From positions 62,001 through 126,000 of the forward strand of contig NZ_CP134876.1 in NCBI RefSeq assembly GCF_032108445.1: a stretch of 64,000 nucleotides of DNA, in the 5' to 3' direction. The notes below the pieces were generated by a model, which made no database searches, was not told the origin of the DNA, and saw only the letters and a program-made list of their open reading frames with translations. This document shows, piece after piece, positions 33,800-57,876 of this stretch. The position numbers were made by a program, and so were the translations under genes. Numbering within the stretch: the first letter of the stretch is position 1; each line of letters begins with the position of its first letter. This DNA is from Micromonospora halotolerans. Lineage in GTDB: Bacteria > Actinomycetota > Actinomycetes > Mycobacteriales > Micromonosporaceae.

Positions 33800-35167
33800 T
33801 CAGTCCGTCCGGGTGAGCGCGGCGGCGGCCGGGACCGGGTCGACCGGACCCGCCGGGTCGAGTGCCGGGCCGGGGTGGCCCGGGCCGGCAACCGAGTCGC
33901 CGGGCCCGTGGTCGTCACCCGGCTGCTCCGCCCCCCGGCGTCCGGCGCGCCAGGCCGGCAGGTAGAGCGGGGCGGCCACGGCGAGCACCACCGCGCCGAC
34001 CAGCATGGCCACGGTGACGCTGGTGGCGTCGGCCAGGGCGGTCAACACCACCGCGCCGAGCGCGGCGGCCGGCTGGCCCATCATCGAGTTCAGCGAGAGC
34101 ACGCTGGTCCGGTAGGGCCCGTCGACCTGCCGGTGCAGCAGCCCCATGTGCAGGGGGTTCGAGGCGCCGTGCACGGTGTAGCAGGCCAGGTAGGCGATGA
34201 GCACGCCGACCGGGCCGGCGAGCAGGCCCATCCCGACCACGGTGACGCCCTGCAGGATCCGCATGAGCGCGGCGGCGGGCGCGGCGCCGAGCCGACGCAG
34301 CATCAGCGGGGTCAGCGCGGCGCCGGCCGCGTTGGCCAGCCAGGCCGCGGAGCTGGCCGGGCCGAGCAGCGCGGCGGCCCGGTCGGCGCCGCCGACCACC
34401 TCGGCGAGGCGCACCGGGAGCAGCGACTCGAAGGTGATCATGCCGAAGCCCCAGAACAGCTCGACGGCGACCAGGGCGAGCAGCACCCGGTTGCGGCGCA
34501 GCAGGCCGAGCGCCTGGCCGACCATCCGGGGCGCCTCGGCCACGGAGGCCCGCACCGCGGCGGCCCCCCGGGCCGGCCGGTGTTCGACCAGCAGCACCGT
34601 GAGCGCCCCCAGCGAGACCGCCTGGAGGGCGATGGCCACCAGCACGGGCAGGGTCAGCGCGCTGATCGGGCCGACCGGGCCGAGGGCGACCAGGCCACCC
34701 CCGAGCAGCGCGCCGCCGCCGATGGCGACCCCGATGACCGTGCCGGCCCAGCCCAGGCCGCGCTCGTATTCGGCCTTCGGGTCGGCGGCCAGAGTGGCGT
34801 CGACGTACCAGGACTCCAGCGGGCCGCTGTCGAGCGCCCGGTAGATCCCCTGCAAACCCCAGACCAGGAAGAACAACCAGAACGAGTCGGCGACCGCGAA
34901 GAGCACCAGCGAGACCAGGCAGACCGCCCAGGCGACGACCAGCACCGGCTTGCGGCCGAGCGCGTCGGCGAGGCCGCCGGTGGGCAGCTCCAGCGCCAGC
35001 ACGACCAGGCCCTGCGCGGTGGCGGCCAGGCCGATCTGGGACAGCGACAGGCCACGCTCCTGCATGAGCAGGATCATCACCGGGGTGAGCAGGCCGGTGG
35101 GCAGCCAGCGCAGACCGTAGAGGGTGAGGTAGCGGAACCGGACCTGGCGTACGGACAGCGCGGTCAC
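33800..35167 (-). CDS. MFS transporter
   Basis: This is a 455-residue major facilitator with 12 predicted membrane helices. The start is the GTG at 35167, which overlaps the stop of the ArsR-type regulator as GTGA, giving MTALSVRQVRFRYLTLYG. The loop between helices 2 and 3 carries the MFS motif A variant ELPTGGLADALGRKPVL. The C-terminal 40 residues are a soluble Pro/Gly-rich tail. Co-transcription with a local repressor points to an inducible drug or metabolite exporter; the substrate is not deducible. Confidence 0.88.
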   Translation of the reverse strand: MTALSVRQVRFRYLTLYGLRWLPTGLLTPVMILLMQERGLSLSQIGLAATAQGLVVLALELPTGGLADALGRKPVLVVAWAVCLVSLVLFAVADSFWLFFLVWGLQGIYRALDSGPLESWYVDATLAADPKAEYERGLGWAGTVIGVAIGGGALLGGGLVALGPVGPISALTLPVLVAIALQAVSLGALTVLLVEHRPARGAAAVRASVAEAPRMVGQALGLLRRNRVLLALVAVELFWGFGMITFESLLPVRLAEVVGGADRAAALLGPASSAAWLANAAGAALTPLMLRRLGAAPAAALMRILQGVTVVGMGLLAGPVGVLIAYLACYTVHGASNPLHMGLLHRQVDGPYRTSVLSLNSMMGQPAAALGAVVLTALADATSVTVAMLVGAVVLAVAAPLYLPAWRAGRRGAEQPGDDHGPGDSVAGPGHPGPALDPAGPVDPVPAAAALTRTD

Positions 35168-35757
35168 CGGAACTCCTTCGGCATCGGGTAGGCGGCGAGG
35201 TAGATCTGCACCTGCTCGGCGCCGGGCTCGGCCGGGTCGGCCTCGTTCCGGTGGCGTTCGAGGAGTTCCCAGACCTCGGCCTCGATCGCCTGCAGCCGGG
35301 CGGCCGGGATGGTCATGAAGATGTCGCTCATGCCGAAGGCGTCCCGCCACTCCGGCGCCCATTCCTGCTGGGTGGCGAACCACTGCTCCGCGTGCTGAGC
35401 CAGGAGGCGCACCTGATCGCCCTGGATCCAGTCGATCGCCGCGCGGGCGTCGGGGTCGTCGTCGAAGTCGGTCGACTCCCAGTTGGTGACGTCGTGCGCG
35501 GCCTGCCACCAGCGTTGCCGGCCGGTGCCCCGGTCCGGGTCCTCGACGACCAGCCCCACCTCGGCGAGCTGGCGCAGGTGGTAGCTGGTAGCGCCGGTGT
35601 TGGTGCCGAGCATCTCGGCCAGCGCGGTGGCGGTGGACGGGCCCTTCACGCGCAGCGCGCCGACCAGGCGCATCCGCAGCGGGTGGGCCAGCACCCGCAC
35701 CTGTCGATGGTCCAGCCGCACCTCGCGCGGCTCGGGACGCGAACCCTCGTTCTCCAT
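35164..35757 (-). CDS. ArsR-type winged-helix repressor
   Basis: I take the ATG at 35757 (197 residues, MENEGSRPEPREV). A longer frame from 35805 would translate through the operator and promoter. The winged helix is at about 18-80: VRVLAHPLRMRLVGALRV, then the recognition region NTGATSYHLRQLAEVGLV. The C-terminal 110 residues have no metal-binding Cys motif, so it is not a metal sensor. The start lacks a ribosome binding site and lies 7 bases after TATTGT, so it is leaderless. It is coupled to the MFS gene, and the phased operator upstream fits autoregulation. Confidence 0.85.
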   Translation of the reverse strand: MENEGSRPEPREVRLDHRQVRVLAHPLRMRLVGALRVKGPSTATALAEMLGTNTGATSYHLRQLAEVGLVVEDPDRGTGRQRWWQAAHDVTNWESTDFDDDPDARAAIDWIQGDQVRLLAQHAEQWFATQQEWAPEWRDAFGMSDIFMTIPAARLQAIEAEVWELLERHRNEADPAEPGAEQVQIYLAAYPMPKEFR

Positions 35758-35761
35758 GCCA

Positions 35762-35817
35762 TGCACAATATCTGTGCACAGTTTCTGTGCACAAGTCCTA
35801 TGCACAGAAACTGTGCA
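35762..35817 (-). promoter_or_regulatory. Promoter covered by a four-site, 13-bp-phased operator array
   Basis: Four overlapping 17-bp palindromes of form TGCACAnnnnnTGTGCA lie at 35762-35778, 35775-35791, 35788-35804 (one mismatch) and 35801-35817, with centres exactly 13 bp apart. The second (TGCACAGTTTCTGTGCA) and fourth are exact reverse complements of each other. The minus-strand promoter lies within: -35 TTGTGC (35789-35794), 18-bp spacer, -10 TATTGT (35765-35770), start codon 7 bases on. Occupancy would block RNA polymerase completely. Confidence 0.85.
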
Positions 35818-35824
35818 TCGAGGG

Positions 35825-36634
35825 TCAGGCCAGCACCTCGGTGATCCCGCGCAGCCGGGTACGCAGCAGGCCGGCGGCCCGGGACGAGTCGAGGCGCACC
35901 TCGGCGGGGCGGTGCAGGCCGGCCTCGGCGATGGTCGACGTCTTCAGGCCGGTCGGGTCGAGGCCGTCGTGCCGGGCCACCAGCAGCCCCAGCTCGGCGC
36001 GGCTGACCGCCTCCGGTCCGGCCACGTTGAGCGGGCCGGTCAGGTCGGTGGGCACCAGTTCGAGCATCGCCGCGGCCAGGTCGGCCACGTGCACCGGGCA
36101 GCGGGCCTCGTCGCTGAAGAGGACGGCCCGGCCGGCCAGGGCGTCCCGGCAGAGCTGGATCTGCTTGCTCCCCTCCCCCACGATCAGCGAGGTCCGCACC
36201 AGCACCGCCCCCGGATCGACCGCCCGCACCGCCGTCTCGGCGGCCGCCTTCGCCGCCCCGTACGGGTGCAGCGGCGTGGGCACGTCGTCGTCCAGATAGG
36301 GCGCCGGGCGGCCGGCGTGCAGCGCGTCGCTGGACAGGTGCACGAGCCGCGCCCCCACCTCGGCGGAGGCGCACGCGATGTGGGCCGCCCCGTCGGCAGT
36401 GACCCGCCAGTCGTCGTACCGGTAGGGGGTGGCCACGAGGGCGTCGGGGCGTACCTCGGTCAGCAGCGCGCGGACCGCGGCGCGGTCGGTGACGTCGAGC
36501 CGGCGCGGCGCGACGCCCGGCACCGCGACGGCGGCCGAGTGGTACGTGCCGGTCACCCGGCGCCCGGCGGCCACCGACTGCCGGCACACCTCGGCGCCGA
36601 GGAAACCGCTGGCCCCCACCACGAGCAGATTCAT
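35825..36634 (-). CDS. RmlD-like NAD(P)-dependent reductase / epimerase
   Basis: The 269-residue extended SDR resembles dTDP-4-dehydrorhamnose reductases and sugar epimerases. The nucleotide loop is LLVVGASGFLGAEV at the N-terminus. The catalytic Tyr/Lys pair is in PYGAAKAAAE, preceded by the Ser segment HLSSDALH. I choose the ATG at 36634 because GGAGG precedes it by 7 bases; an in-frame start at 36670 would lie inside a 16-bp-arm hairpin. No other dTDP-sugar gene is nearby, so the substrate is open. It ends 68 bp from the divergent regulator's start. Confidence 0.82.
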   Translation of the reverse strand: MNLLVVGASGFLGAEVCRQSVAAGRRVTGTYHSAAVAVPGVAPRRLDVTDRAAVRALLTEVRPDALVATPYRYDDWRVTADGAAHIACASAEVGARLVHLSSDALHAGRPAPYLDDDVPTPLHPYGAAKAAAETAVRAVDPGAVLVRTSLIVGEGSKQIQLCRDALAGRAVLFSDEARCPVHVADLAAAMLELVPTDLTGPLNVAGPEAVSRAELGLLVARHDGLDPTGLKTSTIAEAGLHRPAEVRLDSSRAAGLLRTRLRGITEVLA

Positions 36635-36647
36635 TCCGTCCTCCAGA

Positions 36648-36688
36648 CGTCGAAAGGCCCGCGCCATCATGACGCGGGCCTTTCGACG
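36648..36688. other. Terminator-like hairpin inside a divergent promoter region
   Basis: Perfect 16-bp arms, CGTCGAAAGGCCCGCG (36648-36663) and its complement (36673-36688), enclose a 9-base loop. The arm pattern AAAGGCCCGCG...CGCGGGCCTTT is like an intrinsic terminator. It lies between the divergently transcribed reductase (start 36634) and LtrA (start 36772) genes, where a terminator is unexpected. It may be a leader attenuator for the reductase or a relic of an earlier gene end. Confidence 0.75.
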
Positions 36689-55929: not shown

Positions 55930-57876
55930 TCAGGCCTCCTTGACGCGCGGGTTGCGGCCGGTGCCGGCCTCGGCCGACCGGGCCGGGAGCGCCCGGCCCA
56001 GGCCGCTGACCCGCGGGGACAGGAACGCCCGGGTGCGGGCGAACATCGTCATGATCGGGTGGCGGAAGAGGAACACGACGACCAGGTCGAGGACGGTCGC
56101 CAGGCCGAGCGCGAAGGCGAAGCCCTTCACCGCGCCGACCGAGACGATGTAGAGCACCACGGCCGACATCAGGGTGATGGCGTTCGCCGAGATGATCGTC
56201 CGCCGCGCCCGGACCCACGCCCGCGGCACCGCGCTGCGGGGGCTGCGCCCCTCTCGGATCTCGTCCTTGAGTCGCTCGAAGTAGATGACGAACGAGTCCG
56301 CCGCCACACCGAGCGAGACGATCATGCCGGCGATGCCGGCGAGGGTGAGCGTGAACCCGATCGACCGGCCGAGCACCACGAGCGCGCCGAAGACCAGCAG
56401 CGCCGAGAGCACCAGGCTCAGGAAGATGACCGAGCCGAGCAGCCGGTAGTAGAAGAACGAGTAGATGATGACCAGCAGCATGCCGATGCCGGCCGCCAGC
56501 AGACCCGCCTTGAGGTGGCTGTCGCCCAGGGTCGCGGTGACGTTCTGCTGCTCCTGCGGCTCGAAGGTCACCGGCAGCGCGCCGTAGCGGAGCTGGCTGG
56601 CCAGCGCGTTGGCGCTCTTGTTGTCGAAGCTGCCGGTGATCTGCGAGTCACCGGTCAGCACGCCCTGGATCTCCGGGGACGAGACGATCTCGTTGTCCAG
56701 CACCACGGCGACCCGGCACTTGCCGTCCGAGCCGAGCGCGGTCTGGTCGCAGGCCTGACCCTCGTTGTTGAACGCCTCGCGGGTCAGCGCGGTCCACTTC
56801 TCCTGGCCCTTGCCGGTGAAGTTCAGGCTGACCACCCAGGAGCTGGTCTGGTCGAGCACGGCGTTGGCGTCGTCGACGTCGGTGCCCAGCACCTTGGCCT
56901 TGTCGAGCAGGTACTTGGCGCCGGACTCGCAGGCCACCGCCTGCTGGTTCTCGTCCTTGATCGACGCGGCCGGGCGGTTGTCGAGCTGGGCGCAGGTGAT
57001 GGTCGGGACGTTGAACTGCATCCCGACCGGCAGCACCGCGACCTCCTGCGGGGAGAGGGTGCCGAACGGCTTGAGCTTGTCGGCCAGCGACGGGTCCGCG
57101 GTCAGGTCCGCCGGCGCCTGGAGGCCGGAGGCGGCGGCCCAGGCGGCCGCACCCACCTTCTGCTCGATGGCCTTGCGCTGCTGCTCGACGCTCTGCGGCA
57201 CCGGCTCGGCGCTGGCGCTCGGGCTCGGCGCGGCGGCGCTGGGCGTCGCCGACGGGGTCGGGGCGGCGGCGCTGACGCTCGGCGTCGGGGCCATGCCGCC
57301 CTGCCCGCCGGCGCTCGGCGACGTGGTGGCCTTCGCCCCGGCGCTCGCGGTCACCTTCGGCGAGGCGCTGCCGGACGGGGCCGGGGTGGCGCTGCCCGAC
57401 GGGGCCGGGGTGGCGCTGCCCGAGGGAGCCGGGGTGGCGCTGGCGGTCGGGGCCGGCGCGGCGGCGGCGCCGCTGCCGTCGGTGGCCTTGAGCACCTTGC
57501 GGAAGCGCAGCTCGGCGGCCTCACCGACGTTCGTCAGGTCGCGGTTCTGGCCGGGCAGGGAGATGACGATGTTCCGGTTGCCCTCGGTGACCACCTCGGC
57601 CTCGGCCACGCCGAAGGCGTTGACCCGGTTCTCGATGATCTGGCGCGCCTCCTCCAGGTTGGCGGAGGTCGGGGGCTTGCCGTCCACGGTGTTGGTGGCC
57701 TCGAGCGTCAGCCGGGTGCCGCCGACGAGGTCCAGGCCGAGCCGGGGCTCCAGCCGATCCTTCCAGCCACCGCTGGCGCCGCCCGAGAAGAACACCAAAA
57801 GATAGAGGACGACGAAGATGAACCCGAGAACGGCGAGCTGCCGTCCGGGGCGCATCTGTCCCTGAGGTGGTGCCAC
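55930..57876 (-). CDS. secD: Protein translocase subunit SecD
   Basis: SecD is the large partner of SecF. I take the GTG at 57876 (648 residues, MAPPQGQMRPGRQ). The first helix spans about 12-30; GLDLVGGTRLTLEA (47-60) is the D1 signature. The C-terminal five-helix RND core has SIGFTLTLAGIAGMIVSLGVAADSF (within about 510-540), followed by the motif FERLKDEIREG. An Ala/Pro/Ser/Thr insert of about 90 residues (roughly 134-225), containing 8-residue repeats SGSATPAP, interrupts the periplasmic P1 region. Upstream is a 223-bp spacer after yajC. Confidence 0.94.
   Translation of the reverse strand: MAPPQGQMRPGRQLAVLGFIFVVLYLLVFFSGGASGGWKDRLEPRLGLDLVGGTRLTLEATNTVDGKPPTSANLEEARQIIENRVNAFGVAEAEVVTEGNRNIVISLPGQNRDLTNVGEAAELRFRKVLKATDGSGAAAAPAPTASATPAPSGSATPAPSGSATPAPSGSASPKVTASAGAKATTSPSAGGQGGMAPTPSVSAAAPTPSATPSAAAPSPSASAEPVPQSVEQQRKAIEQKVGAAAWAAASGLQAPADLTADPSLADKLKPFGTLSPQEVAVLPVGMQFNVPTITCAQLDNRPAASIKDENQQAVACESGAKYLLDKAKVLGTDVDDANAVLDQTSSWVVSLNFTGKGQEKWTALTREAFNNEGQACDQTALGSDGKCRVAVVLDNEIVSSPEIQGVLTGDSQITGSFDNKSANALASQLRYGALPVTFEPQEQQNVTATLGDSHLKAGLLAAGIGMLLVIIYSFFYYRLLGSVIFLSLVLSALLVFGALVVLGRSIGFTLTLAGIAGMIVSLGVAADSFVIYFERLKDEIREGRSPRSAVPRAWVRARRTIISANAITLMSAVVLYIVSVGAVKGFAFALGLATVLDLVVVFLFRHPIMTMFARTRAFLSPRVSGLGRALPARSAEAGTGRNPRVKEA
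57360..57450 (-). repeat. 24-bp in-frame tandem repeat in secD
   Basis: About three near-identical 24-bp units encode SGSATPAP in the periplasmic insert of SecD. Later units diverge into a wider Ala/Pro/Ser/Thr tract ending near 57210. Confidence 0.75.

Follow-up and report, generated by a model that had tools for sequence, protein, structure and literature searches.

A conserved 13-bp-phased array of overlapping palindromes upstream of an ArsR-type regulator–transporter gene pair in Micromonospora

The soil bacterium Micromonospora halotolerans carries, directly before a gene pair for an ArsR-superfamily regulator and a major facilitator superfamily (MFS) transporter, five short elements whose TGCA cores lie at positions 35762, 35775, 35788, 35801 and 35814 of the 64-kb stretch of DNA that we analysed (the window), at a constant step of 13 base pairs (bp). 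Read on the plus strand, the cores are embedded in TGTGCACA-type elements. Neighbouring cores form four overlapping 17-bp palindromes in which 6, 7, 6 and 7 of the 8 pairs match, and the interior elements are 8-bp palindromes themselves, or almost. An earlier, sequence-only reading had described five TGTGCA-type half sites at 13 bp, forming four 17-bp palindromes that overlap and span both promoter elements; locating the cores and counting the pairs bore this out. Here we show that the array and its 13-bp phasing are real and strongly conserved, and that arrays with an equally exact step precede related regulators across many actinobacteria, and we weigh what they may be for.

The array and its genes

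The features at the locus are as follows.

35762–35817, minus strand: five half-site elements with TGCA cores at a 13-bp step, E1 promoter-proximal (35762) and E5 distal (35814).
35775–35817, no strand assigned: 43-bp dyad formed by E2 to E5, centred on 35796, with 17-bp perfect arms; the E5–E4 and E3–E2 spacers are reverse complements.
35789–35794, minus strand: −35-like hexamer TTGTGC, inside E3.
35765–35770, minus strand: −10-like hexamer TATTGT, overlapping E1.
35164–35757, minus strand: ArsR-superfamily (PF12840, HTH_20) regulator of 197 amino acids; ATG at 35757–35755, 7 bases past the −10.
33800–35167, minus strand: MFS transporter with a GTG start; Pfam MFS_1 on 33833–35173.
35825–36670, minus strand: RmlD/epimerase-like gene, directly upstream of the array and on the same strand as the regulator.

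The regulator scores above the Pfam gathering cut-offs for PF12840 (46.3 bits; cut-off 27) and PF01022 (28; cut-off 22) and is assigned to the ArsR-type winged-helix fold, followed by a long helical C-terminal part. Its translation is without any cysteine, its score against NCBIfam HTH_metalloreg (42.2 bits) falls under the cut-off of 55, and it does not qualify as an ArsR/SmtB cysteine metal sensor; no GAF domain was matched among the five families listed for it. Because the GTG start of the MFS gene overlaps the TGA stop of the regulator gene (GTGA), the two are probably translationally coupled. On the minus strand, the sequence leading into the regulator start codon reads TGCACAGTTTCTGTGCATAGGACTTGTGCACAGAAACTGTGCACAGATATTGTGCATGGC-ATG. 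The array covers a −10 and a −35 of the predicted regulator promoter, the two hexamers standing 18 bp apart (35794–35789 and 35770–35765) and the ATG following after 7 bases.

Chance and base composition were ruled out as the source of the array by simulated windows and by its uniqueness in the genome. With exact TGCA at any fixed step from 8 to 30, the run of five at the array compares with a maximum of two elsewhere in the window, and in 200 first-order Markov simulations of the window the longest run was two (197 times) or three (3 times). Among lags of 5 to 29, lag 13 is the only one that ranks the array first among 68-base windows across the whole 64 kb. The combination TGTGCACA-N5-TGTGCA has no second occurrence in the bacterium's own 6.96-Mb genome, a single contig. 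When that genome was scanned for the 17-bp palindrome with one mismatch allowed, the four places in the array were joined by four single others, and the backward control gave five; with so similar a background, we claim no further regulon targets.

Conservation in relatives and the recognised unit

A relative at E ≤ 0.001 was found in 197 of 200 genomes of the same family. We compared 139 loci with 131 distinct upstream sequences: 30 from this family search (the M. halotolerans locus included), 29 named relatives, all Micromonospora (confirmed among 43 candidate stretches), and 80 picked by hand. Loci were taken from the top of the match lists and, further down, chosen by hand with skips, and do not form a random sample. 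Arrays were fitted to the upstream DNA with the step left free from 9 to 19. Thirteen was the best step in all 59 distinct upstream sequences whose regulators share at least 60% identity with that of M. halotolerans (its own included) and in 53 of 54 at 45–60% identity, the exception, locus L129, preferring 14. A 13-bp array thus stands in 112 of the 113 distinct upstream sequences at 45% regulator identity or more, again with the M. halotolerans locus counted, and all 18 distinct upstreams of regulators below 45% prefer a step of 14. Unaided autocorrelation gives the same picture: the lag-13 identity close to the gene is 0.52 (regulators at least 60% identical) and 0.43 (45–60%), compared with 0.29 and 0.30 farther upstream, and the lag-14 identity in the group below 45% is 0.42, compared with 0.29. 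The number of elements in a 13-bp array varies, with three at 8 loci, four at 30, five at 69 and six at 5.

This comparison supports the earlier proposal that the array is the operator of the regulator–MFS pair. Of the loci at 60% identity or more, 59 of 59 have an MFS homologue downstream, as do 59 of 62 at 45–60% and 18 of 77 below 45%, with class-wide loci (described below) added; L109, L129 and L151 have no MFS match within the stretch examined. As for loci that might keep the pair and have lost the array, only L129 among the 113 is without a 13-bp array, and it combines a 14-bp array with the missing MFS match; L154, at 45.0% identity and from the class-wide set, has an MFS match yet carries a 14-bp array. 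The rmlD-like gene is found upstream in 55 of 59 loci at 60% identity or more but in only 5 of 62 at 45–60%. Since it is rare in the latter group and the array is kept there, the array tracks the regulator–MFS pair and not the neighbourhood.

Two other repeats were seen in the window. Between the rmlD-like gene and a divergent LtrA gene lies an inverted repeat (36648–36688; 20-nucleotide arms, 95% complementary, 1-nucleotide gap). It covers the ATG that is listed first for the rmlD-like frame; translation of this gene probably begins at the ATG at 36634 instead. At 57365–57440, about three copies of a 24-bp tandem repeat lie in GC-rich DNA, with a lag-24 identity of 0.95.

The promoter elements hold their positions within the array: the −35-like hexamer occupies the same place in 93 of 112 arrays and TANNNT that of the −10 in 105, and the ATG lies 6 or 7 bases past the −10 in 100 of the 112, in agreement with the leaderless layout suggested earlier for this locus. 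Elements E2, E4 and E5 appear to have no promoter role that would account for their conservation.

What the array offers to a protein can be read from its ends. Over the 112 arrays, the inner CA of the distal element is well conserved (0.82, 0.96) and its outer TG is not (0.21, 0.23); at the proximal element it is the inner TG that is conserved (0.97, 0.96) and not the outer CA (0.12, 0.12). In the 295 interior elements the T and A are kept on both sides (0.94, 0.94), with the G and C weaker (0.71, 0.50). Because the end elements are conserved on their inner side only, the recognised unit is the palindrome between neighbours, TGCAYA-N5-TRTGCA. By the same asymmetry, which upholds the half-site sharing read earlier, each interior element is shared by two palindromes. 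The half-site centres would lie about 11 bp apart, a distance that would suit a winged-helix dimer in successive major grooves.

Two other units were considered. Each TGTGCACA element could by itself accommodate a dimer, its two recognition helices sharing a single groove in the manner of TubR or CodY, making five independent sites. The interior elements, palindromic over 8 bp or nearly so, would fit such a site; the end elements, which retain the inner half and hold their outer letters at only 0.12–0.23, disfavour it, and we regard it as very improbable. Direct repeats with one orientation per element were also rejected: left-hand letters are missing at the distal end and right-hand letters at the proximal end, and neither orientation fits.

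Mirrored spacers and a candidate operator

The symmetry of the 43-bp dyad extends to its spacers. We name spacers after the elements that flank them (S54 for E5–E4, S43 for E4–E3 and S21 for E2–E1). Among five-element arrays, the mirror match between S54 and the E3–E2 spacer is 0.65 against 0.53 when shuffled in the group at 60% identity or more (26 distinct pairs) and 0.52 against 0.35 at 45–60% (22 distinct pairs). In each group about 2 of 2,000 shuffles were as high, in a shuffle that ignores relatedness; the five other spacer pairings per group gave no comparable excess. Mirrored words include CTTCC/GGAAG, GTTTC/GAAAC, CTTTC/GAAAG, ATTTC/GAAAT and GATCC/GGATC. Perfect mirroring is seen in 6 of the 26 distinct pairs and 5 of the 22; several others match poorly. 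Arrays with a 14-bp step can contain long mirror dyads too, such as that of L166, with 22 perfect pairs. Separately, the six-element array of L044 has one extra 13-bp unit, and the mirror relation persists between its outer arms, CACCTTCTCTGCA and TGCAGAGAAGGTG.

Changes in the two arms are also coupled. We compared 34 disjoint pairs of close loci, each joined to its nearest partner by regulator 3-mer similarity, a choice that only approximates independence. At the five-element dyad centre these gave 82 one-sided and 41 two-sided changes, and 18 of the latter keep Watson–Crick pairing in both loci. At each of 33 other centres, 0–3 double changes keep pairing out of 3–28 two-sided changes, and two centres reach three (of 20 and of 12); as these centres have fewer two-sided changes to begin with, part of the contrast reflects exposure.

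Hairpin-templated copying can perfect long near-palindromes during replication. A serious rival to a symmetric protein complex is an operator whose spacer co-variation is a mutational by-product of such copying, with no selection for symmetry. Perfect arms of 22–23 bp built from quite different spacer words (L077, L052, L166) are what it would leave behind, and the mirrored bases include some that seem unimportant for binding. Yet the other hairpin-prone centres, with their 0–3 double changes against 18, do not show the effect, and nor does the pairing of S54 with S43 centred on E4 (0.25 observed and 0.22 shuffled; 0.27 and 0.29). We think the mutational explanation less likely than not, although these controls leave it a serious one.

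The dyad might also act as an RNA or DNA hairpin, as a terminator or attenuator of read-through from the rmlD-like gene, which stops 7 bases ahead of the array; its 17-bp perfect arms would suit that role. The dyad, however, precedes the point where transcription is predicted to begin and shares bases with the −35, and no run of T follows it. Loci for which no upstream rmlD-like gene was found still have the array, and a hairpin does not require a rigid 13-bp step. We give this explanation hardly any weight.

We favour, as probable, the reading of the array as an autoregulatory operator, on which regulator dimers would assemble symmetrically and shut the leaderless promoter of the regulator–MFS operon. 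The regulator would be its own repressor and the array the operator-promoter of the operon. One dimer would read two neighbouring elements as TGCAYA-N5-TRTGCA, placing one half site in each of two successive major grooves. At full occupancy, two dimers would sit on E5–E4 and E3–E2, mirrored across 35796 and in contact there, and E1, over the −10, would be covered in a competing register (E2–E1). With the −35 inside E3 and the −10 across E1, any register would obstruct RNA polymerase. A putative small ligand would free the protein, and the leaderless messenger RNA would then yield the exporter.

Several observations weigh against this operator model. Five elements cannot be tiled by dimers without one being left over, and the C of the interior elements is conserved at only 0.50. 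One-sided changes in the arms are common, the 82 standing beside 41 two-sided changes of which 18 keep pairing, and the mirror co-variation of the spacers could be mutational. In arrays of at least four elements, moreover, the S43/S21 mirror is absent (0.31 against 0.32 shuffled at 45–60% identity; 0.19 against 0.20 at 60% or more), so that the two-dimer picture does not extend to four-element arrays.

A 14-bp sister class and known systems

Beyond what the sequence-only reading had described, the comparison brought out the long dyad with its co-varying spacers and a sister class of arrays. Class-wide sampling of 246 genomes gave a match at E ≤ 1e-15 in 105, and the 67 loci examined brought in 14-bp-step arrays of other words, such as GCAAAGAANTCTTTGC. 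When 135 regulators were placed on a midpoint-rooted tree, the first fork (100/99) parted the 61 rows with label 13 from the 54 with label 14, and the step labels need two changes each, against 38–39 when shuffled. The remaining 20 rows have no clear TGCA array and were left unlabelled; with the looser word CTTNNNNAAG, 10 of them give 14 as the sole best step with a score of at least 4, and the other 10 yield no 14-bp array even with that word. Among the latter, L161 and L171 have a matched start far within the gene, and L175, L197 and L205 show no visible array. The sole misplaced row, L159, has CTTTGCAAAG-type elements at a 13-bp step directly before its regulator, inside the 14-bp clade; we read it as an independent change of step. 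The clades also differ in protein sequence: residues 52–54, at the start of the predicted recognition helix (54–66), are mostly TNT in the 13-bp clade (54 aligned) and mostly ESS in the 14-bp clade (32 aligned, grouped by clade). Two paralogous regulators encoded elsewhere in the M. halotolerans genome, L176 and L177, are among the 10 rows that gained a 14-bp array with the looser word. Since their arrays use other words (TTGCGCAA and TTTCGAAA), several phased operators may coexist in a single cell, each with its own word.

A step fixed to the base while the number of elements runs from three to six, with a one-base difference between clades, would also suit a cooperative continuous assembly, in which all palindromes are filled and neighbouring dimers share the interior elements (or protomers are joined by two interfaces) in a short helical filament with a 13- or 14-bp step. 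Reports on CodY (overlapping sites), TubR (repeats) and BldC (direct repeats) offer precedents for shared or chained sites. In the 13-bp class, however, the half sites of neighbouring palindromes have the four TGCA bases in common, and one stretch of major groove would have to take two recognition helices; in CodY, where two dimers share a half site, a wing of one is reported to contact the recognition region of its neighbour. The mirror co-variation, moreover, singles out one dyad, which a uniform filament would not lead one to expect. We consider continuous assembly doubtful. More speculative still, and in our estimate slightly less likely, is a generalization by which this actinobacterial ArsR branch would use step-locked chaining of protomers or dimers: the pitch, 13 or 14, would be fixed in each lineage by a repeated protein contact, the words (TGTGCACA, TTTGCAAA, TTCGCGAA, TTGTACAA, TTTCGAAA) would drift, and word and step would together keep paralogues in one cell apart.

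If the operator model holds, a large and apparently undescribed group of regulator–exporter pairs would recognise DNA by chained, shared half sites whose pitch is fixed by lineage. Two questions would become testable: how winged-helix dimers handle half-site sharing, and what makes the pitch 13 in one clade but 14 in the sister clade. The signature could also help to locate the operators of many orphan exporters and, through them, the inducers. Shallow searches of the open-access literature, by title and the start of the abstract, turned up no description that we recognised of the array or of its words with an ArsR-type regulator, which is weak evidence of absence; the same searches brought up no ArsR-superfamily case of up to six chained elements with a lineage-fixed pitch of 13 or 14 bp.

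A classical ArsR/SmtB operator consists of one or two separate imperfect palindromes (12-2-12), unlike the four overlapping palindromes with shared half sites at a 13-bp step found here. DtxR/IdeR and QacR place two dimers on overlapping half sites, with dyads about 5–6 bp apart compared with 13–14 bp in the present arrays. The regulator has in common with the ArsR/SmtB autorepressors CzrA, SmtB, CadC and Rv2034 the winged-helix fold, the PF12840/PF01022 families and a (here predicted) operator over its own promoter; it differs in the chain of three to six elements, the shared half sites, the absence of cysteine and the long helical C-terminal part. Rv2034, an ArsR-type protein, represses itself and protects a single palindrome at its own promoter (PMC3338718).

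Repeated sites are bound in other ways by two further proteins. TubR, a small winged-helix protein, coats short plasmid centromere repeats as a filament (PMC5016525); it belongs to a partition system and binds direct repeats, whereas the units here are palindromic, with half sites at their ends, and lie in a promoter. BldC of Streptomyces, likewise actinobacterial, forms cooperative multimers on short direct repeats (PMC5859096) and is MerR-like, whereas the present sites are palindromes.

CodY dimers bind cooperatively to 15-nucleotide sites that overlap by 6 nucleotides (a 9-nucleotide step) and share a half site, and inserting one or two base pairs weakens the binding (PMC10415144). Half-site sharing is thus already known in kind, and less unusual for a winged-helix protein than the sequence-only reading had held. 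With CodY the present system would have in common winged-helix dimers and cooperative binding (both predicted), overlapping palindromes and a shared half site. It differs in its unrelated PF12840 protein, where CodY joins a GAF domain to a winged helix–turn–helix, in its 13- or 14-bp step against 9 nucleotides, and in its up to five overlapping sites against the two of CodY.
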